Shown here one piece after another: positions 2,777-24,346 of a DNA stretch of 30,214 bases. The notes under the pieces were generated by a model. The model did not search any database and was not told where the DNA came from. It saw only the letters and a list, made by a program, of their open reading frames with translations. This DNA is from a virus, in IMG/VR virus record IMGVR_UViG_3300042892_003081, positions 1 through 30,214 of that record; one strand, given 5' to 3'. The first letter of the stretch is position 1; the number at the start of each line of letters is the position of its first letter. The translations under genes were made by a program, and so were the position numbers.

Positions 2777-3528
2777 AGACTCTGATACTGTTCAGAGAAG
2801 GACTAAGTGGACATTATCTAAAATCATTAATAGATGATGAACCTGTTGATGTAAAGTTTCGCATGGATCCCTGGTATCCTGGCATTTACGATACATTGAC
2901 GCCACCTGCTGAGGATCAATCGTGTGTATGCTTACACCAACTACCTGATGCAGTATATGCTGATAAATTTGATCGTGTGTTCACTGTGTTAGCCAATAAA
3001 TCCATATATCATGCCATATACAATGTGTTTACCAAGAAGGTGTTGGTGGAACAATCCAGCCCTGATGAATTTGCCTGTTGGCAGGACCACATGGTCACAT
3101 GGTATGATCGCTGTTATTACAACATAGAAGAATATTGGGGATTATTCCAGCAGGACACGGCGCTGGGCCAGGTCATCGATTTCGACCAGATTCTGGATGC
3201 AGACTACATGGATCAGTTGTTCCAACAACATTACGGCCGTACACTGAGTGACAATCAACGGCGCATTGTGACAGAATATAGTGCCAAACAATTGAATTTA
3301 ACTTTGAGTACTGCCGGCACCAGTATGCAGGAGATTGTTGATGCCATACCTGATCAGTTATTTCAGGAAAATCCCTGGTTTGCGGCCTATTGCCTGTTCA
3401 AGTTTGAAAAAAATAACCAGCTGCCGGAAAGCAATAGGCTGTGGACCATTGATGATGTCACACAGCCCATTGACAAACAATTTTTATTGTCTGTTGCACA
3501 ACAATATCGCATTAACCAGCAGTCTTGA
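2773..3528 (+). CDS. Hypothetical protein (251 aa), faintly sulfotransferase-like
   Basis: It is the last gene of the late operon, joined to its neighbour by ATGA and ending 17 bases inside the 3' end of the convergent helicase gene. The N-terminus LILFREGLSGHYLKSLI (residues 4-20) sits where sulfotransferases have their PAPS-binding loop. A later segment with a VIDFDQIL strand and a QLFQQHYGRTLSDNQRRIV helix resembles the end of such enzymes. There is no classical P-loop and no clear second PAPS motif, so this is weak. An alternative is a phage-specific glycan-modifying or structural protein. Confidence 0.55.
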   Translation: MKTLILFREGLSGHYLKSLIDDEPVDVKFRMDPWYPGIYDTLTPPAEDQSCVCLHQLPDAVYADKFDRVFTVLANKSIYHAIYNVFTKKVLVEQSSPDEFACWQDHMVTWYDRCYYNIEEYWGLFQQDTALGQVIDFDQILDADYMDQLFQQHYGRTLSDNQRRIVTEYSAKQLNLTLSTAGTSMQEIVDAIPDQLFQENPWFAAYCLFKFEKNNQLPESNRLWTIDDVTQPIDKQFLLSVAQQYRINQQS

Positions 3529-4900
3529 GCCCAGCCAACATATTCTTTAACTTGGCACTGTTGACTTCGGCCACTGGCACTGATCTGTTGGCCATGCTGT
3601 TGACCACTGTGCTGGTTTTGATCTGATCCAGTACTGCACTCATGGGCTTGGCTGGTCCACGATCCTGATTTTCCAGTCCGGGATCAGTTATACGCATGGT
3701 TTCAATGTTATAGTCCAGATCCACCTTCTGCCCTGCACCAGCACCTGACCGATTCTTCATACACTGAATCTGATACTTGCCACGTTCCTTCATGGCGCGG
3801 CTGGTAAAGATACCAAACACATTATCTGCTGTGTTGATCTTGCTGATACCACCGGAGATGTGACTGTGATCAAATTCAATCTCTTCCACAGCACTACGGT
3901 TCAACTGACTGGCTGTGATGAAAAATACATTCAATTCTTCTGCCAGGTTACGTAATTCTTCTGATACATATTTGTCCTTGACGAACAAGTCGTTGGGGCT
4001 GACCTTGGCACTGGCCGGCATCAACAAGTCCAGATAGTCCACCATGACAAAGTCAACTTTAGTACCAGATTGAATCTCCATTTCCTTGATGTAGGCACGT
4101 ATGTCATTGACATTGTTCTGTGCTGGCATGGCCTTGATGCGATATTCACCATATTTCTTCTTGGCCACATTCAGTTTCATCACTGCGTCGTCTATGTTCC
4201 GACGAATCTCTTTGGTGCCCATGTTGGATATCATGGCATCAGTTCTCAAGGATGTCAGTCCCTCACTGAGTTCCAGACTGATGTACACGCCGCTTAATCC
4301 AGCCTGTAGCCAGTTGATGGCAATGTTCATCATGAACAGTGATTTACCTGATCCGGATCCGCCAGCGAAGATGTTGAGTTCCCCACGGCTGAATCCCCCG
4401 TACAGTATGTGATCCAGGCTGGGCCAGCCTGTGCTGACTTTATAACCGTTGTCAAAGTATGCCGTCAATCGGGCCTTGGGGTCTTCAAAATAATCAGTAC
4501 CCATGTCCTTGGTCAGGCTGATCTGTACTGCGTCTTTGATCAAACGCTCAATAGATCCAAAGTCCTGCTCGGGCTTCTCCAACAAGTCCACCGACTCCAT
4601 GATGGCTCTGTATAGCTCTTTGCGTCGTGTAAACTTCTCAAACTCATCCAGTAACCATCCGTCGCGGACTTCTCCTGCGGGTATGGGTTTTAATTGTACA
4701 TCTGCCACTGCATTGATTTGATCCAATGTGGGCAGTATTTTGTATCGGTCACTGTGCTCTAATAAAAATGTTGCTGCTTTGACCAGACTGCGATCAAAGT
4801 TCTTGGGATTGAAAATATTTTTAATTCGTACGAAACTCTCTACATCTGACATCATCATTTCTAAAAACATCTTTTGTACTTGTACGCTGTATTCTTCCAT
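3512..4900 (-). CDS. 41: Replicative DNA helicase, DnaB/T4 gp41 type
   Basis: This is the ring helicase that unwinds the replication fork and works with the gp61 primase. The 462-aa length fits T4 gp41. The N-terminal helical domain is followed by a RecA-like core: Walker A GGSGSGKS (180-187), Walker B strand FVMVDYLDLL (284-293), SQLNR (331-335) and the Arg/Gly-rich loop KNRSGAGAG (382-390) near the end of the core. About 55 residues beyond form a tail rich in Ala/Ser/Val, perhaps for partner contacts. The start ATG at 4900 has AGGAG five bases upstream. The primase gene lies eight bases upstream on the same strand, the usual T4 pairing. Its 3' end overlaps the convergent operon by 17 bases. 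Confidence 0.95.
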   Translation of the reverse strand: MEEYSVQVQKMFLEMMMSDVESFVRIKNIFNPKNFDRSLVKAATFLLEHSDRYKILPTLDQINAVADVQLKPIPAGEVRDGWLLDEFEKFTRRKELYRAIMESVDLLEKPEQDFGSIERLIKDAVQISLTKDMGTDYFEDPKARLTAYFDNGYKVSTGWPSLDHILYGGFSRGELNIFAGGSGSGKSLFMMNIAINWLQAGLSGVYISLELSEGLTSLRTDAMISNMGTKEIRRNIDDAVMKLNVAKKKYGEYRIKAMPAQNNVNDIRAYIKEMEIQSGTKVDFVMVDYLDLLMPASAKVSPNDLFVKDKYVSEELRNLAEELNVFFITASQLNRSAVEEIEFDHSHISGGISKINTADNVFGIFTSRAMKERGKYQIQCMKNRSGAGAGQKVDLDYNIETMRITDPGLENQDRGPAKPMSAVLDQIKTSTVVNSMANRSVPVAEVNSAKLKNMLAGLKTAG

Positions 4901-4908
4901 GTATTCTC

Positions 4909-5952
4909 CTATAGACTATTATATAGCCTGCGCTTGATGATCTCAATCTTTAATCTGCTGGTTTCCACCGCAGCCAATATGCTCTTTAATGCAAACAGTT
5001 TGCCATATCTGGTCACTGCTTCGTTGACGTCCTTGCATGTCTCTTGCCAGACTGGAAAACTCACGTCCCATCCGTACTCCAAGGCAGCATCCACCATCTT
5101 GCGTCCAGGTTTATCGGTGTCTGGCACCACTATGACCTGACGGCCCAGACGGTCTATGATATCAGCCTGTTGTTCACTGACTTCGTTGCCTAGGATGGCC
5201 ACGCCGTCAATAGCCATTGCATCGAATGGCCCTTCGCATACAATGACAAAGCGACTTGCAGGAAGTTGTCTATCCACATTGAAAACATAGTTGGGCTCGT
5301 GTTGTGTAAAATATTTGGGTTTGATGTCGTCTTGTACGGCACGGGCACTGTATCCAATGATCTGGCCCTGCCAGGTAAATGGAATAATTATCCGCCGATG
5401 TAAGTTGTATTGTGTTTCAGGTGTCCAGTAAAAATCATACTTCTTGACGTCTACATTGCGTTCTGCGGCGTACAACACAGATCGATGCCAGTCATCTGGT
5501 ACGTCCTGCTCGTCATTCAGAATGTAGAAAGTATTCAGTTGTTGAAAACTACAGGCTTCTTCTGGTAATGGTCTGGGTTTAAATGTGATTGGTGTTTCAG
5601 GCTCTGCTGCCCGTAACACTTCTGGCGATATCAGTTCTCGAACTCTGATGGCGTCGATTGTCAGTTTTTTAATGGTGTTATCATCAGCACCCAGCCAGCT
5701 CAATAGTTTTCTGAACTTGTATGTTAAATGACGACCGGGTTGATAGCTGGCTTTGAAGTTGCAGTTAAAACAATGATAGCTGACACCACCGTCGGCATTC
5801 ATCATCATACCACCGCGGCCACGGGTGTCTGCTGATTCTCCATTGTGATGGCAACACACAGCATTAAACGATATCCATCCTGACGATGAATTAGTTTTAC
5901 GTTTTCCAGGAAGGATCAGACGCACAGCGTCCTGAATGGTATTCAACATCAT
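4909..5952 (-). CDS. 61: DNA primase, T4 gp61 type
   Basis: It makes the RNA primers for lagging-strand synthesis with the gp41 helicase. An N-terminal CHC2-type zinc site is seen as C33-x2-H36 and C61-x2-C64. The TOPRIM catalytic core follows, with CEGPFDAMAIDG (239-250, Glu240) and VVPDTDKPG (275-283, Asp278/Asp280). The length of 347 aa fits the family. Two tandem ATGs (5952 and 5949) compete as start. The promoter's -10 box ends three bases before the first and six before the second, and there is no Shine-Dalgarno, so the transcript is probably leaderless and may use the second ATG. Confidence 0.95.
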   Translation of the reverse strand: MMLNTIQDAVRLILPGKRKTNSSSGWISFNAVCCHHNGESADTRGRGGMMMNADGGVSYHCFNCNFKASYQPGRHLTYKFRKLLSWLGADDNTIKKLTIDAIRVRELISPEVLRAAEPETPITFKPRPLPEEACSFQQLNTFYILNDEQDVPDDWHRSVLYAAERNVDVKKYDFYWTPETQYNLHRRIIIPFTWQGQIIGYSARAVQDDIKPKYFTQHEPNYVFNVDRQLPASRFVIVCEGPFDAMAIDGVAILGNEVSEQQADIIDRLGRQVIVVPDTDKPGRKMVDAALEYGWDVSFPVWQETCKDVNEAVTRYGKLFALKSILAAVETSRLKIEIIKRRLYNSL

Positions 5953-6981: not shown

Positions 6982-7353
6982 GTGGAACAAATAAAACAGC
7001 TTTTAGACTCTTGGCCCTTTATGACCTATCTAGTGTATGGGGGCAATGACTATGTGGGCATCATACAGAATGCCGACGAGCAGATCACAACGATCTACGA
7101 TTACGCCAGCTTGCGTACACCTGAGCAGAAGAAGAGGTTCCTGGAATTGGGAGAGACATGGTGGTGGGAAAGCAACAGAATCATACCCATCAATGTGTTT
7201 CTAAAAGCTGATTGGGCAGATTTCAAGTTCTGTGTCAAAACCATGAACAGCAAGGATGTGGACATCAAGGTGGGCCATCAGGTCAACCTCAAAGATATGG
7301 CCATGAAGCGCAGCAAGCGCCGTAGTATCACCCTGGTGCGACGAGTTCCGTAG
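6982..7353 (+). CDS. Hypothetical protein (123 aa), GTG start
   Basis: The product is soluble. It has an aromatic N-terminal half (SWPFMTYLVYGGNDYVGII, residues 10-28), a helix ending in ETWWWESNRIIPINVFLK (53-70) and a strongly basic C-terminus (MAMKRSKRRSITLVRRV). I do not recognise a family; a nucleic-acid-binding role would fit the basic tail but is inference. GTG at 6982 is the first possible start; an ATG at codon 14 is the alternative, and no clear Shine-Dalgarno decides. It is a single plus-strand gene between two minus-strand blocks and overlaps the convergent gene by 26 bases. Confidence 0.6.
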   Translation: MEQIKQLLDSWPFMTYLVYGGNDYVGIIQNADEQITTIYDYASLRTPEQKKRFLELGETWWWESNRIIPINVFLKADWADFKFCVKTMNSKDVDIKVGHQVNLKDMAMKRSKRRSITLVRRVP

Positions 7354-7924
7354 CGTTACTCAACAGATTCATGTTGACTGCCACCAGATGTGCATAGGCC
7401 ACTGCGTGACTTTTCTTGAAGTAATAACCATCATCAGAGGGGCGGTCCCATACTGTCTTGGCTACATTGGCCCATTTTTCACCTATTAGATGACGTTTGG
7501 CCGGGCGTATCACAGCCAAAAACATGGCCATTCTGACCATACTATTAACTGCCTCGGGCATTTTAATCAGCGTATCGTAATGGTTACCGATGTGAATTAA
7601 CTGAGCACAAAACTCAGGGTCGTACAATTGATCCCAAGCAGGTTCCTGTGCCATCAACAGATTCAGATGCTGTTCACTCTGCACCCGCTGATACAAGCTG
7701 ACGTTCAGAAAGTCTAATTTAATGTAGCCACGAGATTCAGCATCGTGGTGATCTATACTAGCGACCCCAGTGAAGGGATCAGTGGGTATTCTAGTGGCAT
7801 AAATGCCGGTATTGTGCCGTATTAGTCGACCATCACGCTGAATTCCAGCCGGATGATGACGCAAATGTTCCAGGGCAGCGTCTCTGTTGGCAAAGTCGAT
7901 GTCAATGTCTGATGTGAATTTCAT
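7328..7924 (-). CDS. Miniature DNA polymerase III alpha-like protein (198 aa)
   Basis: It carries, in the right order, the diagnostic pieces of the bacterial C-family polymerase palm and fingers. SDIDIDF (5-11) matches the PDFDVDF strand bearing two catalytic Asp. RHNTGIYA (36-43) matches the KHAGGVVIA segment. GYIKLDFLNV (67-76, Asp71) matches the VKFDFLGL strand bearing the third catalytic Asp. Next come AVIRPAK (137-143), like the ALFRPGP loop, and YYFKKSHAVAYAHL (167-180), like the FNKSHSAAYA fingers motif. Bacterial alpha subunits exceed 1,000 aa; the PHP, beta-binding and OB domains are all missing here. Whether it polymerises is unknown. It is the last gene of a coupled block downstream of uvsW, joined by ATGA to the zinc-finger gene. 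Confidence 0.75.
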   Translation of the reverse strand: MKFTSDIDIDFANRDAALEHLRHHPAGIQRDGRLIRHNTGIYATRIPTDPFTGVASIDHHDAESRGYIKLDFLNVSLYQRVQSEQHLNLLMAQEPAWDQLYDPEFCAQLIHIGNHYDTLIKMPEAVNSMVRMAMFLAVIRPAKRHLIGEKWANVAKTVWDRPSDDGYYFKKSHAVAYAHLVAVNMNLLSNATELVAPG

Positions 7925-8604
7925 AGTCCGGCTGTCTTTAAAATGTGTTTGACTGTCTGGGTATCTTCTGCACAGTCGCTAAATCTTTTAGGCCAGTAAT
8001 CTGGGTCGATCCAGGGTAACACAATGTTGATTTGTTCTGAGTTGAGTGAACCCAAAAACTCGACGCCAGTATCGCAGTTACACACAACCCAAGCACTAAT
8101 ACGGCCGGTGCTGATGTTATAGCATATGCGGTTAGGGCTGCCATAACGGAAATAATCAGAAAGACCATTTTTAAGATCAGTATTATTGCTTGCATAGTCT
8201 TCCATCTCCAGAATAGAACGCTGTACCCCATCCTGCCAGGCTTCACGTTGTAGATATGTCGGCAACCATTCACCGTACAATTTATCGCTGCACCAGTTGT
8301 CCAGCTTGCGGTTGTTTTTCAGCAGCCATTCCAGATAGTTGCTGAAATTGATACAACGTATCTGCTGACAATAGCTACCAAATTTCACAAAAGCATTATA
8401 ATAGGGACTGACGACAAAATCACTATAACTTTTATTTTTGGCACTGCCTTGTGTGATTTCAAAGAATTTCAGATAGGCTTTGAGTCCCAATTGGACCCAG
8501 GTGCTGTTCTCCTGCTGCCATCTGCGCTTGGGCTCACACATGTGAGAAGTCAATGTGGACTCACGTTTGAAATCTCGGGTGCAATAACGACAGGTAAAGC
8601 TCAT
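7921..8604 (-). CDS. Zinc-finger-bearing hypothetical protein (227 aa)
   Basis: The N-terminus has a classical-looking zinc finger: C5-x2-C8, Phe10, then H21-x-C23 (FTCRYCTRDFKRESTLTSHMC). The remaining 200 residues form a helical, aromatic-rich domain (SPYYNAFVKFGSYCQQI about 66-82, FSNYLEWLLKNNRKL about 87-101) that I cannot place. Zinc finger plus basic patch suggests nucleic-acid or protein binding. ATGA overlaps join it to the genes on both sides: the unknown 156-aa protein upstream and the Pol III alpha-like protein downstream. The three are therefore probably translated in step and may act together. Confidence 0.7.
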   Translation of the reverse strand: MSFTCRYCTRDFKRESTLTSHMCEPKRRWQQENSTWVQLGLKAYLKFFEITQGSAKNKSYSDFVVSPYYNAFVKFGSYCQQIRCINFSNYLEWLLKNNRKLDNWCSDKLYGEWLPTYLQREAWQDGVQRSILEMEDYASNNTDLKNGLSDYFRYGSPNRICYNISTGRISAWVVCNCDTGVEFLGSLNSEQINIVLPWIDPDYWPKRFSDCAEDTQTVKHILKTAGL

Positions 8605-9071
8605 AGATACTCTTTGATCTTTTTATCATCCCAGCCCAGGTCCCGGGCATATTGTTTTAATTCGTCCCGACTGTTGATTTCAGCCATGAGCTGGATATCA
8701 TCTTCCTTGTAATTGGGATATACTTCACGTAAAAACTTCACGGCCTTGGTGTTGCTGGACTCCCGCTTCTTGGGTGCCAGCCAGTCATGTCGCTGTACAC
8801 CCATGCCCGGACTCACAGTAGTGGCCATGAGCCATTGCATCTTTTTATGCTGGGTACCGCTGATGTCAAAAAAGTTTTTGTTCAGTCGCTCGTTGGTGCT
8901 CATGAGATAATATGCCTGCATGTCAGCATCACCACGCACTGTTGATCCCCAACGAATCATGAGAAATGGGCTGAACTTTTTACGTTCCTCTTCAGTCAGA
9001 CTGTCGTAAAAATCACGGTTCTTGAGATCAAGCTGACGCATCTCATTGCCAATATTTAATTTATCACTCAT
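8601..9071 (-). CDS. Hypothetical protein (156 aa), possibly clamp-loader small-subunit (gp62)-like
   Basis: The start is set at the ATG at 9071 (MSDKLNIGNEM), eight bases inside the end of the upstream gene; the longer reading upstream translates the neighbour out of frame. The protein is helical: DFYDSLTEEERKKFSPFLMIRWGS (about 21-44), a central YYLMSTNERLNKNFF, an Arg/Trp segment (RHDWLAPKKR) and a C-terminal helical bundle ending GWDDKKIKEYL. The spacing of these helices is reminiscent of T4-type gp62, but the match is by eye and weak. The neighbours are DNA-metabolism-like genes, which fits. Confidence 0.55.
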   Translation of the reverse strand: MSDKLNIGNEMRQLDLKNRDFYDSLTEEERKKFSPFLMIRWGSTVRGDADMQAYYLMSTNERLNKNFFDISGTQHKKMQWLMATTVSPGMGVQRHDWLAPKKRESSNTKAVKFLREVYPNYKEDDIQLMAEINSRDELKQYARDLGWDDKKIKEYL

Positions 9072-9378
9072 CTTCTGATGGTCTTCCGTTGCTGTGTCGG
9101 TTGCGTACTTGTTCCACGTCCTGCATGGCCCGTTGCTCCTGCATGGTGCGTTCATTAAAAAACTTTCTGGGATTGCCACATGCAAAACATTTTGAGTTGC
9201 CACAGGTAACACCACTTACTTTATGATAACGATGTGGATTATTTGAATTGCCGATAATGACACCAGCGCCACCAATATCAAAGGCATGGGCTCGGCGTAT
9301 ACCCATCTGTCGATCAATATGTGCCAACTTGCGATGCAACCTACGGCTATGTTTATAGCGTTCTACTTGTGTACCCAC
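9064..9378 (-). CDS. Small Cys-containing basic protein (104 aa), GTG start
   Basis: The basic N-terminal helix is rich in Arg/His. It is followed by a compact motif VTCGNSKCFACGNPRKFF (58-75), with three cysteines in a C-x4-C-x2-C spacing followed by GNPRK, and then TMQEQRAM. The same CGNPR...T.QE.R phrase occurs in small proteins of many phages and mobile elements, whose function is not known to me. Zinc or RNA binding is likely. GTG at 9378 is chosen because AGGAG stands six bases before it. The gene overlaps the next by eight bases. Confidence 0.65.
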   Translation of the reverse strand: MGTQVERYKHSRRLHRKLAHIDRQMGIRRAHAFDIGGAGVIIGNSNNPHRYHKVSGVTCGNSKCFACGNPRKFFNERTMQEQRAMQDVEQVRNRHSNGRPSEDE

Positions 9379-10193: not shown

Positions 10194-11648
10194 TCACTGC
10201 CAGTCCGTCTTTTCCACAGCGAAAGGATAATTCGCCTCGGTGTAGAATTTTTTACGGGCTGTTAAATGTCTTTTTGCGAACTTGCAGGTACTGGTGATGT
10301 CCCAGATTTGCACGAAGTCTTTGTCTTCGGCTCGTCTAATACCTCTGCCAATGCTTTGTATAACGCGGATAAAGCTCTTTCCGGGCTCAAAAAGAACCAC
10401 ATTAAAAATACGGGGCACATTAATACCCACAGCGGCCACACCGTAAGTCGCCAGAGTAATCTTGTTATCACCGGTGGCAATGTCGTCGTACTCGTCTTTA
10501 CGGTCTTGGGCTTTGGTTGCACCCGATACAAATACAGCATTTGGCAATCTCTCTAGAAGCAGTTGGCCGGTTGCGATGCGGTCTATCAGTACCAGAGTAT
10601 TGCCTGAGTCTTTGATTCTATCCACTAACTGTGCAATATAATCTATTCTGCCGGGATTCTCAGTCAGATATTTTAACTCTGCCTGATATTCTTTGTACTC
10701 CACATGGTCCACCAACTGTACTATATTTACGTGACAATTGGCCAAGTGGCCAGATTCCTGTAGATCTGATGCACTGAGCTTACCCACTACATTGCCCAGA
10801 CTACAGAAGATACTCAGCTGTTCATATTTCTCTTTGGGCACGGTGCCAGTCAAGCCCCAGCGTATGGGTACATGAGCAAACACACCAGCCAACAGAGTCT
10901 TTAATGCATCAGCCTTGGCCATGTGAACTTCGTCCACCATGACCAGAACTACATCTTCAATAAACTCATGTATGGGCACTGCTGCCTCATCATTGCGAGT
11001 ATTTTTCAACATGATGTTCAGACTCTGCCAGGTGCAGATGGTGTGCTGATGGCCGTATTCTTTTCTATCACCAAAGTATACACCCACATCCAGACCCATG
11101 TTGATGTAGTCGGCTTCAGTCTGTGTGACCAGACTCTTGTTGGGCACAATGATGATGCTACGCCCATAGGGCTCCACGCTCTTGCTCAGTGCGGCAGTTA
11201 TAATGGTTTTACCAGCACCAGTGGCAATCTCCTGTATGCTTTGTGGATTTTGCAGAAAGTTATTGATAATCTCCACCTGATAGTCGCGAAACTTAATGGG
11301 CTCACCAGCAGCTGGATGGCCCTGGGGCCATGTTACATGACTGAATGTGTCGGCATGGAACTCTGTGAATTCAAACTGTGTACAATATGTACGCTGATCT
11401 TCCACATCAATATCATAGCCCATGTTGTCCAGCATGGGCAGAATCTCTGGCAACAGATTGATGTAGCTGCTGCCACCCAGCTGAAAGAAGGCCACTTTGC
11501 CGTCCCATCTGCCCAGACGAACAGCTGGTTGATAACGTGCGCCTGGTATTTCAAATTTAAATGTGTCCACCAACTTCTTACGGTCAGCCAGATCCAGCCC
11601 TTCAATCTTTACATTGACCTCGTCCCGGATGATGAGTTTAACCTTCAA
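10194..11648 (-). CDS. uvsW: UvsW-type recombination/branch-migration helicase
   Basis: This is an SF2 helicase that in T4 unwinds R-loops and branched recombination intermediates at the switch to recombination-dependent replication. Numbered from the TTG chosen here (484 aa), an N-terminal substrate-binding domain (LKVKLIIRDEVNVKIEG) has the same strand pattern as the T4 UvsW N-terminus. Motif I ATGAGKT is at 142-148, the DEVH box at 239-242, motif III as GLTGTVPK, and motif VI QSIGRGIRRA at 431-440. TTG at 11648 overlaps the upstream stop by 11 bases and aligns with the T4 start; starts up to 11720 are open but would lie inside the neighbour. Confidence 0.93.
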   Translation of the reverse strand: MKVKLIIRDEVNVKIEGLDLADRKKLVDTFKFEIPGARYQPAVRLGRWDGKVAFFQLGGSSYINLLPEILPMLDNMGYDIDVEDQRTYCTQFEFTEFHADTFSHVTWPQGHPAAGEPIKFRDYQVEIINNFLQNPQSIQEIATGAGKTIITAALSKSVEPYGRSIIIVPNKSLVTQTEADYINMGLDVGVYFGDRKEYGHQHTICTWQSLNIMLKNTRNDEAAVPIHEFIEDVVLVMVDEVHMAKADALKTLLAGVFAHVPIRWGLTGTVPKEKYEQLSIFCSLGNVVGKLSASDLQESGHLANCHVNIVQLVDHVEYKEYQAELKYLTENPGRIDYIAQLVDRIKDSGNTLVLIDRIATGQLLLERLPNAVFVSGATKAQDRKDEYDDIATGDNKITLATYGVAAVGINVPRIFNVVLFEPGKSFIRVIQSIGRGIRRAEDKDFVQIWDITSTCKFAKRHLTARKKFYTEANYPFAVEKTDWQ

Positions 11649-12822
11649 TAGTTCTGACCTTTTTATTAGTTTGTCCCTTAGTATACACATCCTGGGCCGC
11701 ATATACAATCTTTTCGGCATTCTGAATCATCATTGCTCGATCACCACCAAAGATCAGACCTGCTGCTGTTATCAGCAGAGGTATACGGTCGAGATTCCGT
11801 ATGCCCTTGGTGGTGTGTATGTACCTGGGTTCAGTTGCTGTGGGTAATCCTGCAGGATTCGCACTGATCAGTTCAGCAGGATATCGTGATCGTAACTTAC
11901 TCAACATGGCACCAAATAAATCAGGCTCAAAGCAAACCACAGGCCATCGCTGTAATGTATCAGCATAATCCAGGATGGCGTCCAGATCCTGGGCTGGCAC
12001 TGAGCCATCGGGTAGTACTTTGAGTTCGCGATTACTCAACAGACTGTAAAATTTCACACCATATTCTGCTCGTACTGCCTGTGCTATCCCCTCACCGACT
12101 GTGTATCCCAGTGGGCCACTGTGGTCAATCAGTCGCAGCAGATTGTCCTCAGCAAAGCCACCCAGATGCTGCTGTATATATTCCCTGAGACTGTCACTGG
12201 CATTGGTGATGTCCAGGCCAGTGAGTGACCAGACCAGCTCAATGGCATAAGGTTGGCGTTCGCAGGCCTGTACGGTCTGGAATAATTTGCACACTTCAGC
12301 ATCTACTTCGAATTCATGATGAGTGGCCCAGGTGTATATCCAGCTGACGTTGTATTCAGTTATATCATTGACCCAGACTTTCTGATCACGATCCCACTGA
12401 CTACGTCCCTGACTGTCCTTGCCAAAACGACGAAACTCTTCAATCAATGTGACATCGTAGGGAAATTTCACCTGTATGTCATTGCCCACCACACTGACAC
12501 GACGACTATAGTCCATGGGACGTATGGGATTGCGCCATTGAGGATCAGACACTGGAGTGACATCAATATTTTTATTGGCCAGTTGACGTCGATATTTTGT
12601 AATGATTTTACACAACAGGTCTGCTTGCCGTTGCGTCAAACTGTCATTGTTGGCCGTGGTGTTGGCCATGCTGTTGAGTACTTCAACATCGTAGCGGGCC
12701 AAGTTTATGATGGAGGTGCCACCAAAAATCATACCATGGGCTGAGGGCCATTTGCCAGTCACTGGATCACGGTAACCTACAATTACTTCCAGATAGTCTT
12801 CTACTGTGGGGAATGTTTTCAT
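11638..12822 (-). CDS. Unknown protein with HARP-like segment, upstream of uvsW (394 aa)
   Basis: The middle of the protein (about 110-175) reads as a strand VVGNDIQVKFPYD, a helix LIEEFRRFG, then a WDRDQKVW turn followed by a helix and a WIYTWATHHEFEV strand. This is the pattern of HARP/SMARCAL1-type DNA-annealing modules (PYD..LI..FR....W....K.W). The N-terminal part (about 55-85) has a Q-rich helix, and the C-terminus has PLLITAAGLIFGGDRAMM. Fold and function are inference. It immediately precedes uvsW with a short overlap, so it may be a partner in handling branched DNA. The ATG at 12822 has no Shine-Dalgarno, and a promoter -10 box ends six bases before it. Confidence 0.75.
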   Translation of the reverse strand: MKTFPTVEDYLEVIVGYRDPVTGKWPSAHGMIFGGTSIINLARYDVEVLNSMANTTANNDSLTQRQADLLCKIITKYRRQLANKNIDVTPVSDPQWRNPIRPMDYSRRVSVVGNDIQVKFPYDVTLIEEFRRFGKDSQGRSQWDRDQKVWVNDITEYNVSWIYTWATHHEFEVDAEVCKLFQTVQACERQPYAIELVWSLTGLDITNASDSLREYIQQHLGGFAEDNLLRLIDHSGPLGYTVGEGIAQAVRAEYGVKFYSLLSNRELKVLPDGSVPAQDLDAILDYADTLQRWPVVCFEPDLFGAMLSKLRSRYPAELISANPAGLPTATEPRYIHTTKGIRNLDRIPLLITAAGLIFGGDRAMMIQNAEKIVYAAQDVYTKGQTNKKVRTIEG

Positions 12823-16759: not shown

Positions 16760-17518
16760 TTAGAAGTAGTTGACATTGGTGCGAGGAAAGAAGCACTCAT
16801 TTTGCTGTAGTGGTTTGATTTTGATGGTCTCACATACTGCTGGACGGCCCAGACCCATGGCCAGACTGAAAACAAAGTTCTGATTGGCCATGACCAAATC
16901 TGCACCAGCCACAATGTTGGCCAATTCCAGGAAGTTGTCAACTCGATGATGTGCTATGGTACTGATGTTCTTTTCAAAATCTTCATGCTCTGCGGTGGTG
17001 CCGATAAAAACAGCACTGTCTGCAGCACCTGGTTGTGCCATCAGGCTCTGCCATACGGCATCACCATTGGGACAACGATACCTGGGAGTACGGCTAACCA
17101 CAATCTTGGCCACAGGATTGGCGTCGGCCTCCAGCCAGGGTGTGTCATAATCTGACATCAGGAACGGCAGATTGAATGTACGGTGGTATGCTTCCACATA
17201 GTTGCCTTCAAAGCCACGGAACAGGACTCCACGGAAACGATCCAGGTCTACATCCGGCTCTGCATCGCCCTGGTGCCACTGGCCCACTGTTTGGATATAG
17301 CTTTGTCGACGTAGTAATGGTAATAGTAATTCAAAGTCCTGCAGAGTAAAGCGACCCTGGTGTGCAGGGTCTACTTCGTCAGGACGATAGCCATATTGAC
17401 TGACACAATTCTCAATGTTGTTTATGGCTACCAAGAACTGACCAGGTTCCATCTTCCTGACCACACTGAGGCTGTATATGAGGTCACCCAGCGTACCTGA
17501 ATGTCTATATTGCATCAT
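16760..17518 (-). CDS. GT-B-type glycosyltransferase-like protein (GT9-like), 252 aa
   Basis: The start ATG at 17518 overlaps the upstream stop (ATGA); a second ATG follows at once. The N-terminus YRHSGTLGDLIYSLSVVRKM has the glycine loop of heptosyltransferase-like GT-B enzymes. The C-terminal half has AVFIGTTAEHEDF, then a VDNFLELANIVAGADLVMANQNFVFSLAMGLGRPAVCE stretch, the layout of the donor-binding site (a ..DLVM.N..F...LAMGLG.P loop). It is the last gene of the seven-gene leftward sugar operon and probably transfers a sugar to a glycan. The substrate cannot be told. Confidence 0.7.
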   Translation of the reverse strand: MMQYRHSGTLGDLIYSLSVVRKMEPGQFLVAINNIENCVSQYGYRPDEVDPAHQGRFTLQDFELLLPLLRRQSYIQTVGQWHQGDAEPDVDLDRFRGVLFRGFEGNYVEAYHRTFNLPFLMSDYDTPWLEADANPVAKIVVSRTPRYRCPNGDAVWQSLMAQPGAADSAVFIGTTAEHEDFEKNISTIAHHRVDNFLELANIVAGADLVMANQNFVFSLAMGLGRPAVCETIKIKPLQQNECFFPRTNVNYF

Positions 17519-18063
17519 GGCTTGATGTACACCCATAGTCCCAGATGACCAATAATATCTGCATCAGGTAATAATTCATCCACTGCCTTCTTGACACCGG
17601 GCCATGCGTAATCATCACCTGCCAGCATGGCACCGGGCTTGAGTCTTTTAAGCCACTCAGTGATGTCGTCAACGACATCCTGATACTCGTGACTGCCATC
17701 TACTAGTACGAAATCCAGACTATTGTCAGCATATTGCTTCACTGCCTCCATGCTGGTCATACTCACGGGTCGGATAAAATCAAATGGCTCAATATTGGCC
17801 ATGAACTCGTGATAGAGAGTACCAGCAAGCACGGCAGGGTCATTGACGTGTGCTTCTTCGTTACTGCCCAGCCAGGTGTCCACACAATCCAATCGGATTT
17901 GTTTGCCGCTGTTGACAATCTGTACACCCAGATAACAGCTACTTTTACCTCGCCATGACCCAACCTCCACAAACCAGGCGTTATCCGGTGCCAACTGTAC
18001 TGCTGTATCGTAGATGGATTCGTAATTGAACCAACCCTGAATGTTTTGATAAAAATGTTCCAT
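17515..18063 (-). CDS. Class I SAM-dependent methyltransferase (Methyltransf_24 type)
   Basis: The SAM-binding motif is FVEVGSWRGKSS (31-42), followed by an acidic strand LDCVDTW (58-64). The later core has SLDFVLVDGSHEYQDVVDDI (115-134), with the DGSHEY signature of this family, then LKPGAMLAGDDYAWPGV. At 182 aa it is a bare catalytic domain. Family members often O-methylate sugars in capsule or rhamnan clusters. The start forms TAATG with the upstream glycosyltransferase stop, so translation is coupled. An O-methylation step on the cluster's sugar is a reasonable inference. Confidence 0.85.
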   Translation of the reverse strand: MEHFYQNIQGWFNYESIYDTAVQLAPDNAWFVEVGSWRGKSSCYLGVQIVNSGKQIRLDCVDTWLGSNEEAHVNDPAVLAGTLYHEFMANIEPFDFIRPVSMTSMEAVKQYADNSLDFVLVDGSHEYQDVVDDITEWLKRLKPGAMLAGDDYAWPGVKKAVDELLPDADIIGHLGLWVYIKP

Positions 18064-18959
18064 TATTTTAATTGTCCTAAAATGGCAGTGGCAATGCGCT
18101 GTGTATCCCAGTTACTGGCACAGGGGAATGTCTGTTTCTTACACACCAACTGCCTGACAGGTCTGACCTGATCGTCATTGCAGCCAGCACAATCTTCTGA
18201 TGTCTGAATGGCTGTGCAATTATGTCCCATCTCATGCTTGCGGTAGGGCAGAATACATTCAGGGCGTAAATGTGTCAGCAGAGCAATGATATGCGTATTG
18301 CTGGCAGCGGCACATTGAAATGGCCCTGAGTCAATGCCCACAAATGCCTGAGCATGGTCACACAGATATTTCAACTGTTGACTGTTATAACGACCACGAG
18401 CATCAAATATCAGTGGATGGTCCTGTACTGCAAAGTCAGTGTCGCCGCCCACGCACACAATGGTGAAGTCGGTACGCTGTTCAAACAACAGACCAAAAAC
18501 TTCAAACCAAGTGTCCAGGCTGATGTTCTTGCTGGCCCAATGCCATTGTCTCATGTGGACCACGACGAATTGTTGTCCCAGATCTTCCATGTCCTGAACT
18601 ACGTCACGGCGATCTTCATCGCTGGGCCATAACTCCACACGCTGATCCAGATTGCGGAAATTGTCACCAAACGCACGATAAAACATGCTGTCCACATAGT
18701 GTTGCGTGGGATTGAGTTCATATGCATCGTCCAGATTGATGTACAGATCGTATGCGGCAACATCTGGCATCATGTGTGGCAGATATATGTTGCGGATATG
18801 CGGATTGTTGCGATAGACCTCCACAAACTCAGTGGCAATATCAATGTTGCAATTGTTGTATCGCTTGGTGAGTTCTCTGACCACAGCAGTACTCATGATG
18901 GTGTCACCAATGGCAGCACGGCGGCGCACCAGTATGTTAATGGGTTGTTCTAATTTCAT
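18063..18959 (-). CDS. GT9-family glycosyltransferase (heptosyltransferase-like)
   Basis: This family adds a sugar from a nucleotide donor. The N-terminal VRRRAAIGDTIMSTAVVREL (11-30) has the GDxxx loop of LPS heptosyltransferases. Then come VVVHMRQWHWASKNISLDTW (about 132-151) and VGGDTDFAV. The donor-site helix is AFVGIDSGPFQCAAASNTHIIAL (205-227). The length of 298 aa is close to the bacterial enzymes. Overlaps of four bases or fewer join it to the C-methyltransferase and the small methyltransferase. The acceptor is unknown. Confidence 0.88.
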   Translation of the reverse strand: MKLEQPINILVRRRAAIGDTIMSTAVVRELTKRYNNCNIDIATEFVEVYRNNPHIRNIYLPHMMPDVAAYDLYINLDDAYELNPTQHYVDSMFYRAFGDNFRNLDQRVELWPSDEDRRDVVQDMEDLGQQFVVVHMRQWHWASKNISLDTWFEVFGLLFEQRTDFTIVCVGGDTDFAVQDHPLIFDARGRYNSQQLKYLCDHAQAFVGIDSGPFQCAAASNTHIIALLTHLRPECILPYRKHEMGHNCTAIQTSEDCAGCNDDQVRPVRQLVCKKQTFPCASNWDTQRIATAILGQLK

Positions 18960-20194
18960 TGTCCAATCTCAATTGTGGGAAAATATTTCAAGAAACGATC
19001 GTTGGGGCTCTTACGTAGTGTACGTATTTTACCACGGATCTCCCGGAAGACATTCCAGGCCAGCGGTACGAACAATACCTTGTCTGACGATTCCAATTGG
19101 TCTGTCAGATAACCACTATCAGTAATGGGTGTGTCCAGACCTGGTACATAACGGCCTTGCTTGAGAGGATTATCGTCGATGATAACGTCACATTCAATAT
19201 GTGCTGATGTGATGAATGTCATGCCCTTGGCGGCTGCACCATAACCAACAATCTGATATCCTTTTGCTCTGTATTCTGCCACCACATTGTGGGTTTCCTG
19301 CATGATGGTCCTGGCACGGTCAGCCCAGCGGCCATATGTTTCGGCATCATGTAATCCCTGTGCTTGTTCCAGGGCCAGGATATTGGCAATACGTTGCTCA
19401 TTAAATTGGCTGCGGCTCAGTACAAAGATATAGCTGATGCCATGGATGGGAGTCTTGATCACGTCCACCAGATGTAATCCAGCACGTTCTGCCAGACATT
19501 TCATACTGTAGGAATTGTAGTAGCTGATGTGTTCGTGATATATGGTGTCAAATTCACCGTTAAGTACCATGTCGGCCTGACTGGTGCTGATAAACATCAA
19601 TCCATCGTCGTGTAGACTTTCACGTACCAATTGCAGATAAGACAGCGGATCAGGAATATGACTAAAAGCATTCTGACTGGTGATGATATCATACTTGCGC
19701 TGAGTGGCAGGATTGGTCTTGTTCCAGTATCCCAATTGGACTTTGTGCTTGGCTGAAGATACAGGATACAGATTTTCTGCTGGATCAACTCCGTATGTGT
19801 CAATGGTCTTGTAATTGTCACCCAGCCGTAGGAAGGCGTCCAATTGACTGCCATCATTGCATCCGATGTCCAGAACCGAGTCCGGCATGCCGGTATACAT
19901 TTCGCACACGAAGTTGGCATACCAATCCATATAGTCCATGTATGTCTGACTGGTGCCCGACACATACAGATAGTTCTTGTACAGTATGTCGGGATTGACA
20001 ACGACATTCAATTGCAGATGGTCGCAATGCTTGCATCTGATGACATTCAATGGAAAGTCTGGTTCAACATCAGCAATGGATGTTCTGAGATTGTTGGCTG
20101 GAGGTTGGTTGCCCAGGTCCAGGCAGGGGTGTAGAGAGTAGCTGCCACATGCGATGCACTCATCGTTTATAATTGTGTTGTTAAGATAAACCAT
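18956..20194 (-). CDS. Sugar C-methyltransferase (TcaB9/TylCIII type)
   Basis: These enzymes add a methyl to C3 of a keto-deoxysugar nucleotide. Three domains are seen in 412 aa: a zinc-binding N-terminus (C13-x2-C16 and C54-x2-C57, with LGNQPPANN between), a SAM core (VLDIGCNDGS, 107-116) carrying the catalytic YHEHISYY loop (219-226), and a C-terminal Rossmann-like domain (VGYGAAAKGMTF about 315-326). The match is close along the whole length. Its substrate would be a dTDP-4-keto-6-deoxysugar from the RmlB-like enzyme encoded two genes upstream. Its ATG overlaps or abuts the neighbours on both sides. Confidence 0.93.
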   Translation of the reverse strand: MVYLNNTIINDECIACGSYSLHPCLDLGNQPPANNLRTSIADVEPDFPLNVIRCKHCDHLQLNVVVNPDILYKNYLYVSGTSQTYMDYMDWYANFVCEMYTGMPDSVLDIGCNDGSQLDAFLRLGDNYKTIDTYGVDPAENLYPVSSAKHKVQLGYWNKTNPATQRKYDIITSQNAFSHIPDPLSYLQLVRESLHDDGLMFISTSQADMVLNGEFDTIYHEHISYYNSYSMKCLAERAGLHLVDVIKTPIHGISYIFVLSRSQFNEQRIANILALEQAQGLHDAETYGRWADRARTIMQETHNVVAEYRAKGYQIVGYGAAAKGMTFITSAHIECDVIIDDNPLKQGRYVPGLDTPITDSGYLTDQLESSDKVLFVPLAWNVFREIRGKIRTLRKSPNDRFLKYFPTIEIGQ

Positions 20195-20913
20195 TAGTTT
20201 TTAATCGCCTGTCCGTTGGGTGCAATGGTGCCTTCAACGCCCAGCAATGGTACTTCCAGCACATGTTGGGCTGGTAGGAATTTGTATAATACGTGCTCAA
20301 TGTCTGCGTAGCCACCCTGCGCCACACGATTGGCTATGTAGGACAGACTGTCGAAATACACAACAATCATTTCTGGAGTCATATGGGCCGGCCATGACCA
20401 CAGACGTGCCATGTATTGAAGCTCAATGCCAGTGACGTTAAGTGGAAATTGGCTGCTGTGTTTCGGGCCCACAATGATGCGATCGGGATTATTTTCGTAT
20501 AATGACAGATCAAAGTCATCCGTCAACAGATATCGGCCGGACATTTTATGTATGCGATCTACGCCTGCAAAGTCGCCATCGTCCCAGCACATCTGCAGAG
20601 TGCGACCGAAACACATGATCTCTGTGGTGTTCTTGACCACGTCCCAGTTGTCGCTCTGATAGATGGATTGTACATCAGCATCAGTAGTCCAGTCCACTAA
20701 GATGTCTGCGGCCACATCCAGTGCCGATTCTTGTTCAGCACTCAGCGCGATACCTGTACATTCCATGACAATGACTTTGCAACCCGGTACACGAGTACGC
20801 AGACTGCGTATGGTGTCCAGTGTTTGTTCCAGTCTGACTTCAGGTTTGTATACACCAAACTTACTGTTGATGGCACTGGTTACTACAAAGGCATGCTTCA
20901 CTTCTTGAGCCAT
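20194..20913 (-). CDS. Unknown protein of the sugar operon, possible glycosyltransferase (239 aa)
   Basis: The start is ATG at 20913 (MAQEVKHAFVVTSAI), with GGAG eight bases upstream and 16 bases of overlap with the RmlB-like gene. After a short strand-helix beginning, a Rossmann-like stretch KVIVMECTGIALSAEQESAL occurs, then VDRIHKMSGRYLLTDDFDLSLY. The phrase KMSGRYLLTDDF is of the kind seen in small phage or capsule-cluster GT-A enzymes. There is no firm family match. Its position between a dehydratase and a C-methyltransferase supports a sugar-related role. Confidence 0.6.
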   Translation of the reverse strand: MAQEVKHAFVVTSAINSKFGVYKPEVRLEQTLDTIRSLRTRVPGCKVIVMECTGIALSAEQESALDVAADILVDWTTDADVQSIYQSDNWDVVKNTTEIMCFGRTLQMCWDDGDFAGVDRIHKMSGRYLLTDDFDLSLYENNPDRIIVGPKHSSQFPLNVTGIELQYMARLWSWPAHMTPEMIVVYFDSLSYIANRVAQGGYADIEHVLYKFLPAQHVLEVPLLGVEGTIAPNGQAIKN

Positions 20914-21938
20914 CTGTTGTTCTCCAAGGTCCATTGTACCATTTCGGCGATACGTTCTGACAGTTTGATCTTGGGCTCCCAACCCAGGCTAGCCAGCAGT
21001 CCACCATCCAGGGCGTAACGCATGTCATGTCCTGGGCGGCTGGTGTGGAAGTCAGTCATTTCATAGATCAACTCTTGACCCACTCCGGCTGCAATCATCT
21101 GGGCCAGTGTCAGGTTATCAATTTCTTCTGTACCCACCAGGTTAAATTTGGGGCAATGTGCGTGGCCATAGTCACCAGTGTGCTTATAGTCTTTGGGCAG
21201 TTCAGTTAATATAAACATCAGTCCTTCTGCCACATCTTTGGCATGGATATACATGCGTGTGCCAGCATGTGTGCGTGAGGGATCTGCGTGAATGATTACT
21301 TTTTCTCCATCGCGGACTTTCTGAATAGTAGCAGGAATAAACTTCTCAGGATGCTGTCGTTCACCAAAAACATTCATGGTGTGTGTGACGATGATGGGCA
21401 TCTTGTAGGTATTTTCATAAGCCACACAAAATTCTTCAGCAGCCGCTTTACTGGCTGAGTAGGGATTTGTGCTATTGTAACGATCATACTCTTTATACGA
21501 CACACCTGGTGGTGCCACACCAAAGATTTCGTCTGTACTAAAGTAGACGAACTTTTCCAAGTCAGGAAAGTTCTTACGTGCATAATCCAGTATATTAACT
21601 GTGCCCACAACATTGTCTTGTACAAACTCCATGGGATATGTGATGCTGCGGTCCACGTGGCTGCCTGCTGCCAGATGCAGAATAATATCAATGGGTCCAA
21701 TGTCTTCCACAATCTGACTGTTGAGCTCTGCTTTGAGATCATGAAATATGATGCGTAGACGTTTCGACACCATTTTGGCATCGTGGTCCAGAAGCATGTC
21801 ATGCAAGCGGTTTAAGTTGCCTGAAATATCCAGTCTGTCCAGACAAACGACATTCCAGTCAGTGTCTGCTAAAATTTTATCAATTGCGTGATGGGCAATG
21901 AAGCCGGCACCACCTGTTACTAGTACGTTTTTTGCCAT
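20898..21938 (-). CDS. NAD-dependent dehydratase, dTDP-glucose 4,6-dehydratase (RmlB)-like
   Basis: The extended SDR enzyme has NAD loop TGGAGFI (8-14), HLAAGSHVDRSI (88-99, the RmlB-type substrate strand), STDEIFG (134-140) carrying the catalytic Thr-Asp-Glu, and YSASK (160-164) with Tyr160/Lys164. SRPGHDMRYALD near the C-terminus is also RmlB-like. The length of 346 aa is normal. It should turn a nucleotide-glucose into the 4-keto-6-deoxy intermediate used by the C-methyltransferase and epimerase. A second, shorter paralogue lies at 26696-27640. No nucleotidyltransferase (RmlA) is in the window, so the donor comes from elsewhere or from the host. Confidence 0.9.
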   Translation of the reverse strand: MAKNVLVTGGAGFIAHHAIDKILADTDWNVVCLDRLDISGNLNRLHDMLLDHDAKMVSKRLRIIFHDLKAELNSQIVEDIGPIDIILHLAAGSHVDRSITYPMEFVQDNVVGTVNILDYARKNFPDLEKFVYFSTDEIFGVAPPGVSYKEYDRYNSTNPYSASKAAAEEFCVAYENTYKMPIIVTHTMNVFGERQHPEKFIPATIQKVRDGEKVIIHADPSRTHAGTRMYIHAKDVAEGLMFILTELPKDYKHTGDYGHAHCPKFNLVGTEEIDNLTLAQMIAAGVGQELIYEMTDFHTSRPGHDMRYALDGGLLASLGWEPKIKLSERIAEMVQWTLENNRWLKK

Positions 21939-21956
21939 GTTGGACCTATAGTATTG

Positions 21957-22823
21957 TTAAGTATTGTAAGGGTAAGCGGGTAAGAAGTCAAGAGCTTTGG
22001 CGACAGAATCGGATAATACCCCATTGCCAAAATGAGCAGTATTGGCTTGCAATGCCCTGGGAAAGTATGAATCCAATTCCACAATTTCATAACGGTCATC
22101 ACTGTCCTGCTGCCAGCTGGTGCGTTTGGCTATACTGGCTTCAGGATCAATTTGTGCAATAAATTCTGGAGTATTGACTTCAGTATGAGCAAAGGACTGG
22201 GCCTTGTCCACTAACCATTCTCGATCGCCCATATAACCAAAATGCCAGCCGCCATGTTCAATGACTTCACAGCCGTTATTTTGAAATTGGTACGGCGAGT
22301 TCATAAAGTTAAACCGCAGGGCACGGAATGCATCAGGCATGATGTCATCAAATAAATGACGACGACCAGCCATGCCCCAGATGTTGTAAACATCAGGACT
22401 GATCTTCATGTAATTGAATTTAAAATTATATATGGGCATACGCAGGGCAAAAAGAGTTTGTTCACTCTGACGCATGTATTCCACAGCAGCAGGACGAATT
22501 ATTTCATCCAAATCTGATATCATGATCAAATCCATGGGGTCAGCGTCGACAATGCCACGCATGATCTGATCTCGTTGAAAGCGATCATTTACCCAGGCAT
22601 CTCTATGGCATGGCATTTTATCCACTTTGATATGAATGATTTTGTCCGCAAATCGAGCGAATCGTGAGCGGGCCTTTTCGTACATAAAATATTTGGGTTT
22701 AGATGTGAATGTGGTGTCGGCTTCAACCAAGACAAAATAGTCGACATAGTCATACAATTCAGTTAATCTTAATTCAAGCAAGTCTAATTCGTTGTAAAAC
22801 GTAAAACAATCGTAAATTTTCAT
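21957..22823 (-). CDS. Glycosyltransferase family 17-like protein
   Basis: The start ATG at 22823 (MKIYDCFTFYNELDLLELRL) matches the conserved N-terminus of the GT17/N-acetylglucosaminyltransferase III-like family. The phrase YFVLVEADTTFT (29-40) and the metal-binding DLD (Asp104/Asp106) in MISDLDEIIRP are both present. The C-terminal half has GWHFGYMGD. It is 288 aa. It is the first gene of the leftward sugar operon, with a late-type box GGTAAATA ending five bases before the ATG; no Shine-Dalgarno is seen. Longer readings upstream would run into the divergent promoter region. Confidence 0.85.
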   Translation of the reverse strand: MKIYDCFTFYNELDLLELRLTELYDYVDYFVLVEADTTFTSKPKYFMYEKARSRFARFADKIIHIKVDKMPCHRDAWVNDRFQRDQIMRGIVDADPMDLIMISDLDEIIRPAAVEYMRQSEQTLFALRMPIYNFKFNYMKISPDVYNIWGMAGRRHLFDDIMPDAFRALRFNFMNSPYQFQNNGCEVIEHGGWHFGYMGDREWLVDKAQSFAHTEVNTPEFIAQIDPEASIAKRTSWQQDSDDRYEIVELDSYFPRALQANTAHFGNGVLSDSVAKALDFLPAYPYNT

Positions 22824-22828
22824 AACAG

Positions 22829-22836
22829 TATTTACC
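22829..22836 (-). promoter_or_regulatory. Late promoter candidate of leftward sugar operon (GGTAAATA)
   Basis: It matches six of eight positions of TATAAATA, with TAAATA intact, and ends five bases from the ATG at 22823. A start six bases downstream would make the mRNA begin at the A of the ATG. It faces a divergent box at 22839-22846, two bases away. Confidence 0.45.
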
Positions 22837-22838
22837 CA

Positions 22839-22846
22839 GTTAAATA
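22839..22846 (+). promoter_or_regulatory. Late promoter candidate of rightward sugar operon (GTTAAATA)
   Basis: It matches six of eight positions of TATAAATA. It would start transcription near 22852, leaving a short leader with AAGGA before the ATG at 22875. It forms a back-to-back pair with the leftward box. Confidence 0.45.
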
Positions 22847-22874
22847 CACATACAATAAAAAATTCAAGGATCTT

Positions 22875-23516
22875 ATGCACGCCGTTGCCAGCATCAATAC
22901 AGCTGATTACCAAGACCTAGCTGATCTTACTGACGCCACAAAAAGAGAATATTGCAACCGTTATGGTTATGAGTTCTTTGTCTTAAAAGAAACCAAGTAT
23001 AGCCCCATCATGGGATTCAACAAGATAGCCTATGTACTGGATATCTTTAATCAACGTCCGGATATTGAATGGTTATTGTTTAGTGAGTGTGATGCCATGA
23101 TAACAAATCTATCCATCAGTATCGATGAAAAAATTGATGACAATTATCATTTTATTTTGCCAGTGGATCGTCTTAATCTCAATGCCGGTAACTTTTTAGC
23201 TCGCAATTCTCCAGAAGGTCGTGTATACTTACAGATGATAATGGACAATGAACCAGCGTATGTCAATCAAGAATGGGCTGAGCAGCAGGTTATCATTGAC
23301 ACCATTGAAGACAACCTGGACATCGTTAAGATTGTCCCACAACGTTATATGAACAGTTACGAACCTGCAATCTATGATTACTGCGATGCCAGAATGGATA
23401 TTTTAGGCAACAGCGGAGCATGGGAATCTGGTGACTGGATTGTTCATTGGCCAGGAACATACAAGCCCACAAGAATTGCTCGGGCACTGGCCCTGACACC
23501 ACAGATCGTCAGATGA
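22875..23516 (+). CDS. Glycosyltransferase, GT34/galactosyltransferase-like (213 aa)
   Basis: The layout fits small GT34-type enzymes: a short first strand and helix (NRYGYEFFVLKET), then WLLFSECDAMITN (66-78) with the metal-binding acidic pair in the E-x-D form Glu71/Asp73, NAGNFLARNS (104-113), and the C-terminal GDWIVHWPGTY with His192 in an HxxG turn. The ribosome site AAGGA is four bases before the ATG at 22875. It is the first gene of the rightward operon, followed by an ATGA overlap with the epimerase gene. The acceptor is unknown. Confidence 0.82.
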   Translation: MHAVASINTADYQDLADLTDATKREYCNRYGYEFFVLKETKYSPIMGFNKIAYVLDIFNQRPDIEWLLFSECDAMITNLSISIDEKIDDNYHFILPVDRLNLNAGNFLARNSPEGRVYLQMIMDNEPAYVNQEWAEQQVIIDTIEDNLDIVKIVPQRYMNSYEPAIYDYCDARMDILGNSGAWESGDWIVHWPGTYKPTRIARALALTPQIVR

Positions 23517-24346
23517 AAATATTCATTACCGGCACAACAGGATTTTTAGGTCGCAGCCTTAAAGAACATTTTGCACAGCATCACGAGATAGCAGAATACC
23601 GCCGAGGATCAGATGTCTTCATGGCACTGGAAGCAGAAAAGCCCGATGTGATTGTCAACTGTGCTGGTGAGATATATGACGCCAGTAAGATGTACAGCAC
23701 CAATGTGGCGCTGGTAGAAGCTATTCTGGAATGGATCAAACGTAATCCCAAGACCCGACTGATACAGATTGGGTCCAGTGCTGAGTATGGTCCAGTGAAT
23801 CGTGCCACCAACGAACAGGACCGTATAAATCCCGTGGACGTATATCAGGCCACAAAAGGTGCAGCCACTCTGTTGTGCCAGGGGTATGCTCGACAGTTCG
23901 GACTACAGACATTAGTGGCACGTATCTATTCAGGGTACGGAGCATATGAACGCCCACACCGACTATTTCCACGACTGTATCGAGCATTTTTTCACAACGA
24001 GCCCATGACGTTGTATGATGGGGTCCATGACTTTATCTATATTGACGACTTTGTTCGCGGTATTGATCTGGTGTTGCAGCGTGAATGGCCTGTTGGTGAG
24101 ATTGTGAATTTTGGGTCCGGTGTGCAATATCAAAACCTGGATGTTCTGACTGCTTGGAAGAAAGCCACTGGCATAGTGGATGCACCAATAAAATATCAAG
24201 AACAATTCAGTAAAGCATTTGAAAGCCCAGTATGGTGTTGTGATATCAATCATGCTGCACTGACTTACGATTTTAAGACAGAATTCACCCTGGAACAGGG
24301 TATACAAGACTTTATACGGAAAACCAATGTTAAACAAAATCATTAA
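23513..24346 (+). CDS. NAD-dependent epimerase/reductase (extended SDR), 277 aa
   Basis: The NAD loop is ITGTTGFLG (5-13), the strand VIVNCAGEI follows, the catalytic Ser-containing segment is GSSAEYG (87-93) and Tyr111/Lys115 form YQATK. The late part has FIYIDDFVRGIDLVL, as in sugar-nucleotide epimerases and reductases. It probably acts on the 4-keto sugar made by a RmlB-like partner. The start at 23513 overlaps the preceding stop (ATGA); an earlier start at 23447 would lie inside the glycosyltransferase gene. Its end overlaps the FkbM gene by 20 bases. Confidence 0.85.
   Translation: MKIFITGTTGFLGRSLKEHFAQHHEIAEYRRGSDVFMALEAEKPDVIVNCAGEIYDASKMYSTNVALVEAILEWIKRNPKTRLIQIGSSAEYGPVNRATNEQDRINPVDVYQATKGAATLLCQGYARQFGLQTLVARIYSGYGAYERPHRLFPRLYRAFFHNEPMTLYDGVHDFIYIDDFVRGIDLVLQREWPVGEIVNFGSGVQYQNLDVLTAWKKATGIVDAPIKYQEQFSKAFESPVWCCDINHAALTYDFKTEFTLEQGIQDFIRKTNVKQNH

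Follow-up and report, generated by a model that had tools for sequence, protein, structure and literature searches.

The stretch of viral DNA analysed here, which is referred to as the window, comprises 30,214 nucleotides of the IMG/VR record IMGVR_UViG_3300042892_003081. An ORF on its minus strand (7924..7328) starts with ATG and encodes a 198-amino acid protein with the N-terminus MKFTSDIDIDF, which contains metal-binding palm strands and reduced fingers and is the C-terminal half (C-half) of a split minimal DNA polymerase III alpha subunit (Pol III alpha; phrog_11778). The gene lies in a cluster whose order is conserved between the window and its relatives, namely UvsW, phrog_11279, phrog_11758, phrog_11058, C-half, convergent phrog_11637, primase, and DnaB helicase. 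The upstream end of the cluster is formed by a UvsW-type helicase gene (10194..11720, minus strand; phrog_16, E = 2e-76, UvsW_N). It is adjoined by a gene for a 394-amino acid protein (11638-12822, minus strand), to which, judged by position, the UvsW neighbour of the related contig L240 (3157-4503, 448 amino acids) looks like a relative. The conserved neighbour phrog_11758 (8601..9215, minus strand), listed with a GTG start, for which downstream start codons would also be possible, occurs at 155 loci, and L240 has the same order. Downstream of the C-half, a convergent gene of the phrog_11637 family (6982..7353, plus strand), encoding about 120 amino acids, overlaps its 3' end by 26 bases; this orientation is kept in 136 of 153 testable relatives and likewise in annotated phages, making the tail-to-tail pairing unusually stable. 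A DnaG-like primase of the T4 gp61 type (4909..5952, minus strand; phrog_47, E = 4e-45, Toprim) and a DnaB-like replicative helicase of the T4 gp41 type (3512..4900, minus strand; phrog_19, E = 5e-69, DnaB_C) complete the cluster.

Directly upstream of the C-half, in the window as in 122 of 161 testable relatives, is the gene of phrog_11058 (7921..8604, minus strand; E = 1e-55), while several annotated phages have a small gene between the two. The original prediction had called its product a zinc-finger protein, translationally coupled to the polymerase-like gene. The protein does carry an N-terminal finger, which is of the C2HC type (CRYC...HMC) and which Pfam zf-C2H2 matches at E = 0.0019, below its curated cut-off. 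The stop codon of phrog_11058 overlaps the ATG of the C-half as a 4-base ATGA (7924-7921), an arrangement recurring in 52 of about 120 scorable relatives. From this stop/start overlap, translational coupling of the two genes is plausible.

The active-site marks of C-family polymerases, which had been predicted for the 198-amino acid protein, are all present and in the expected order: S-D6-I-D8-I-D10-F, IRHNTG (the equivalent of KHAGG), K69-L-D71-F-L-N, IRP-AK (the equivalent of RPGP), and F-K-K-S-H173-A-V-A-Y177. The codons of DIDID, residues 6-10, are located at 7895..7909 (minus strand) and specify the first metal-binding strand, which corresponds to residues 401-405 of E. coli DnaE; those of KLDFL (residues 69-73) lie at 7706..7720 and those of FKKSHAVAY (residues 169-177, E. 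coli FNKSHSAAY) at 7394..7420, both on the same strand. According to the DnaE alignment, D6, D8, D10, and D71 are the counterparts of D401, D403, D405, and D555, K69 is that of K553, H37 and G40 are those of H511 and G514, R140 and P141 those of R639 and P640, and H173 that of H760.

Searches with the C-half sequence alone gave no Pfam match and no relevant PDB match, so that its relatives were needed for verifying the assignment to DnaE. In PHROGs, the family phrog_11778 (197 positions), labelled "DNA polymerase", matches residues 4-190 of the 198 with E = 6.4e-59. Profile-profile comparison (hhalign) of the C-half with an alignment based on E. coli DnaE yielded 96% probability over E. coli residues 510-768 and a second, weak segment at 399-420, as had been anticipated for palm and fingers; five neighbouring families that served as negative controls in the same comparison stayed below 2%. 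When the C-half profile was run against all PDB sequences, the six matches were all Pol III alpha; their E-values were weak (0.08-2), and the matched stretches lay mostly in correct order. The AlphaFold2 model, built from 74 sequences, has a mean pLDDT of 93.5, and the relationship of its fold to DnaE is borne out by the first eight PDB fold matches, which are Pol III alpha (probability 0.72-0.99, E = 0.025-0.13, query TM-score at most 0.52). Against a viral library, the first matches of the model are mostly named phage DnaE-type polymerases. E-values of the fold searches are modest overall (0.005-0.13); yet Pol III alpha was ranked first by every method. The C-half is homologous to bacterial Pol III alpha and is a piece of a C-family polymerase.

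Conservation was assessed on 168 aligned relatives, with a single gap each in the first and the last segment. D6, D8, and D10 are identical in 167/167 relatives having that region, H37, G40, K69, D71, R140, P141, and K143 in 168/168, and H173 and Y177 in 167/167. This invariance implies that the motifs are not a product of chance, and the three aspartates D6, D8, and D71 turn out to be as conserved as had been foreseen. Within the C family, D401, D403, and D555 are absolutely conserved, and D405 is a feature of DnaE (PMC3919608). The C-half is under purifying selection; in comparison with close relatives, pN/pS is 0.11-0.15, amino acid-changing sites having diverged about 6.5-9 times less than silent ones.

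The original prediction correctly described the PHP, clamp-binding, and OB regions as absent; the C-half has none of these, nor (HhH)2, and comprises the core region only. Its chain begins at E. coli position ~399, five residues ahead of DxDxD, so that the initial portion of the palm, with the nucleotide-binding motif GRGS, is missing. In addition, E. coli residues ~642-744, located between RP (639-640) and FNKSH (near 757), have shrunk to about 25 residues, with deletion of the fingers segment bearing R709, an arginine that is invariant in the DnaE alignment. The C-half does not amount to a complete one-chain polymerase core, with GRGS palm and full fingers. The missing palm part is encoded by a second, distant gene in the relatives, so that the protein, contrary to what had been thought, is not stand-alone and is, as judged from these sequences, one half of a two-gene enzyme. 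The partner (N-half) is phrog_11127, a protein of ~172 amino acids represented by CBB_328 of phage CBB (172 amino acids). Its profile matches Pol III alpha at E. coli residues 322-392 (E = 0.0026), profile-profile comparison with the DnaE alignment gives 97%, and the first 14 PDB fold matches of its model (pLDDT 94) are all Pol III alpha or PolC. RGS of the GRGS motif is invariant in 93/93 N-half matches, while an acidic residue stands where E. coli has R390. Placed on the E. coli sequence, the last position of the N-half is ~392 and the first of the C-half ~399. Neither ORF extends more than a few residues beyond the homologous region, which leaves no room for an intein. A natural fusion of the two halves was not encountered among the loci examined, where four ORFs with N-half motifs near the C-half turned out to be separate PHP-less DnaE genes of ~560 amino acids.

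Co-occurrence of the two halves was searched for in 32 large records. Each of the nine reference phage genomes contains exactly one C-half and one N-half at separate loci, together with a family B polymerase. In the ten IMG/VR records exceeding 250 kb, N-half and family B polymerase are present in 10/10 and the C-half in 9/10, the exception being G015. Of the large records, those most closely related to the window are G008 (329 kb, C-half 62% identical) and G005 (228 kb, 61%), each of which possesses both halves and a family B polymerase. Among the matches listed, 58 of 60 phage records with a C-half also have an N-half; the remaining two are Slicko01, where an N-half was found by profile, and a 109-kb record that is not among the N-half matches listed. 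The halves are separated by about 11 kb to more than 180 kb within one genome. Their divergence is correlated (r = 0.72, 0/2000 permutations, 21 genomes), which constitutes weak evidence, since shared phage descent alone predicts such a correlation. The N-half locus adjoins a GroES-like gene; in L091, L092, L095, and L097 the N-half is followed first by a gene for a 115-150-amino acid protein and then by a GroES-like gene of co-chaperonin size, after which several phages have the gp44/RFC clamp loader. Both loci are replication settings. Since the window is a 30-kb fragment from which the N-half is absent, the partner would have to be encoded elsewhere in this phage. The notion that a phage with T4-type replication should use a family B polymerase holds for the relatives, of which 29/32 records carry one, including all nine reference genomes; the 30-kb window itself contains none.

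The C-half family is present in 63 phage records, with about 33-50% identity among the matches listed; the phages carrying it include Atu_ph07, Phosso, the PA5oct group, relatives of RaK2/121Q/GAP32/CBB, SCTP-2, XacN1, and Slicko01. The family is also frequent in IMG/VR, where 195 of 198 candidate stretches belonged to it in one search and at least 595, out of 600 candidates, in another. In a set of one genome per prokaryotic species (84,980), the family occurs at just 11 loci, all in metagenome-assembled bins, which are best read as phage contigs. It follows that the C-half is a phage gene and not a cellular one. Slicko01 (OQ508956.1; L090, L297) is a circular genome of 141 kb that encodes a family B polymerase and a C-half, with a divergent N-half at a distance of 11 kb from the latter; being below the jumbo threshold, it indicates that the split enzyme also occurs outside genomes larger than 200 kb.

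The original prediction was not aware of a described function, but a split minimal DNA polymerase III alpha of group 2.2 jumbo phages has been described from genome comparisons (Iyer et al. 2021, PMC7824862), and PHROGs uses the label given above. As far as that description extends, the window gene is a further member of this family, matched by description, phage group, and motif content. Common to both are protein family, length, motifs, and a T4-type replication background with a family B polymerase in relatives, as well as the division into an NTP-binding N-terminal part and a Mg- and template-binding C-terminal part at distant loci. In the account of the system given by Iyer et al., nothing essential differs; the window is a metagenomic virus fragment with the partner gene outside. 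Its C-half is about 50% identical to that of Agrobacterium phage Atu_ph07, for which a Pol III alpha gene has been noted (PMC6102473), and the truncated alpha subunit CBB_328 was already mentioned in the paper on CBB (PMC5259590). A literature search for functional tests or activity assays of the split Pol III alpha found none, and one on YerA41 found nothing tying the YerA41 polymerase to the C-half family.

With bacterial DnaE, the C-half shares the aspartates 401/403/405/555, K553, HxxG, RP, and FNKSH in the same order as well as the predicted fold. In contrast to DnaE, it has one sixth of the length, the enzyme is split into two chains, and PHP, (HhH)2, OB, clamp, and tau regions as well as the R709 fingers segment are missing. 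PHP and (HhH)2 domains are nearly universal in cellular C-family members (PMC3919608). A C-family core without PHP domain is also found in phage DnaE-like polymerases of ~560 amino acids, which differ, however, in being single chains with longer fingers and an R709 equivalent, encoded by a separate gene and not representing a fusion of the halves. Four contigs carry such a gene a few kb downstream of the C-half (L240:13688-15376, L231:13998-15701, L254:8745-10442, and L216:8872-10572), so that some of these phages have both forms; in L240, it directly follows DnaB and an endonuclease III-like gene. In cyanobacteria, DnaE is likewise divided into two genes, whose chains are joined by a split intein; there, splicing produces one chain, whereas the phage halves offer no space for an intein.

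Taken as a whole, these data make it rather probable that the window protein is the C-terminal half of a two-chain, PHP-less C-family DNA polymerase core which assists a family B replicase. The C-half would constitute the metal-ion and template side of this minimal core, and the N-half would supply the first part of a Pol-beta-type palm with the GRGS motif. The two chains are proposed to associate non-covalently, by which a single palm would be completed. D6, D8, and D71 would bind two magnesium ions, and K69, K143/R144, and the KKSH helix would keep both template and incoming nucleotide in place. The most likely role would be auxiliary DNA synthesis, in which the enzyme, working beside the phage's family B replicase of the T4 type, would for example extend primers, fill gaps, or act in repair. 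With the R709 segment deleted and an acidic residue in place of R390, dNTP binding must differ from that of DnaE; the pair K143/R144 or the pair K170/K171 may stand in for the missing fingers arginine. Counted against the two-chain polymerase are the large distance between the two genes, which bears on co-expression, and the lack of a clamp-binding, OB, or HhH region.

Loss of the R709 fingers segment also means that templated polymerisation is not guaranteed. The halves might instead form a nucleotidyltransferase with a Pol-beta fold that does not polymerise DNA on a template; terminal transfer, end healing, or the modification of a protein or RNA would be examples of its activity. Such an enzyme could retain the metal site, GRGS, and K69 while dispensing with the R709 segment, the OB fold, and the clamp contact, and the related phages already own a replicase. 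It is nonetheless unlikely, because the equivalent of the KKSH helix and HxxG are kept without exception and the C-half gene lies within a primase-helicase cluster, both of which fit templated synthesis. Still more speculative is an extension of the two-chain polymerase, according to which the phages with family B polymerases possess the smallest known C-family enzyme, with a nucleotide site rebuilt in replacement of R709; it may be a dedicated primer-extending or hand-off polymerase, acting between the primase (C-half locus) and the clamp loader (N-half locus) in a role like that of eukaryotic Pol alpha.

There is little to be said for the C-half alone as a miniature polymerase or transferase. 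A confident single-chain fold prediction and the full set of metal-binding aspartates speak for it; the GRGS palm part, however, sits in a second gene in every reference genome tested, and the ends of both genes meet in E. coli numbering. Equally improbable is a non-catalytic mimic that binds parts of the host Pol III holoenzyme or DNA and thereby blocks or redirects host replication. While homology to the host replicase and small size would suit such a decoy, as had been considered in the original prediction, it would have no need of catalytic aspartates, which are invariant in 167-168 sequences. Moreover, Pol III alpha contacts its partners through PHP (epsilon), the clamp motif, and the tail (tau), and its partner-contact regions are missing from the C-half. 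A functionless, decaying relic of a captured host dnaE, for which the reduced size relative to DnaE might be adduced, is practically discounted by the low pN/pS, the absence of stop codons from the relatives compared, and the preservation of length and position across many contigs.

Returning to the two-chain polymerase, the ~370 residues of the two halves, if they give an active enzyme, would probably represent the smallest C-family polymerase. An active enzyme would further provide a tractable model for the origin of bacterial replicases and a case in which one phage combines polymerases of two unrelated families. The present data supply the split point, the missing fingers segment, and the residues to be mutated, and the well-annotated phages CBB, 121Q, RaK2, and Atu_ph07 are sources for expression of both genes.

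Elsewhere in the window, positions 16760-27640 are occupied by a long block of sugar-nucleotide, glycosyl-, and methyl-transferase-like genes, as read from the translations. Within this block, the ORFs at 25615-26220 and 26217-26699 read, at the same level of evidence, like two halves of a split transketolase. Three tRNA genes follow on the minus strand, for Val(tac) at 27891-27966, Gly(tcc) at 29525-29598, and Thr(tgt) at 29602-29677.
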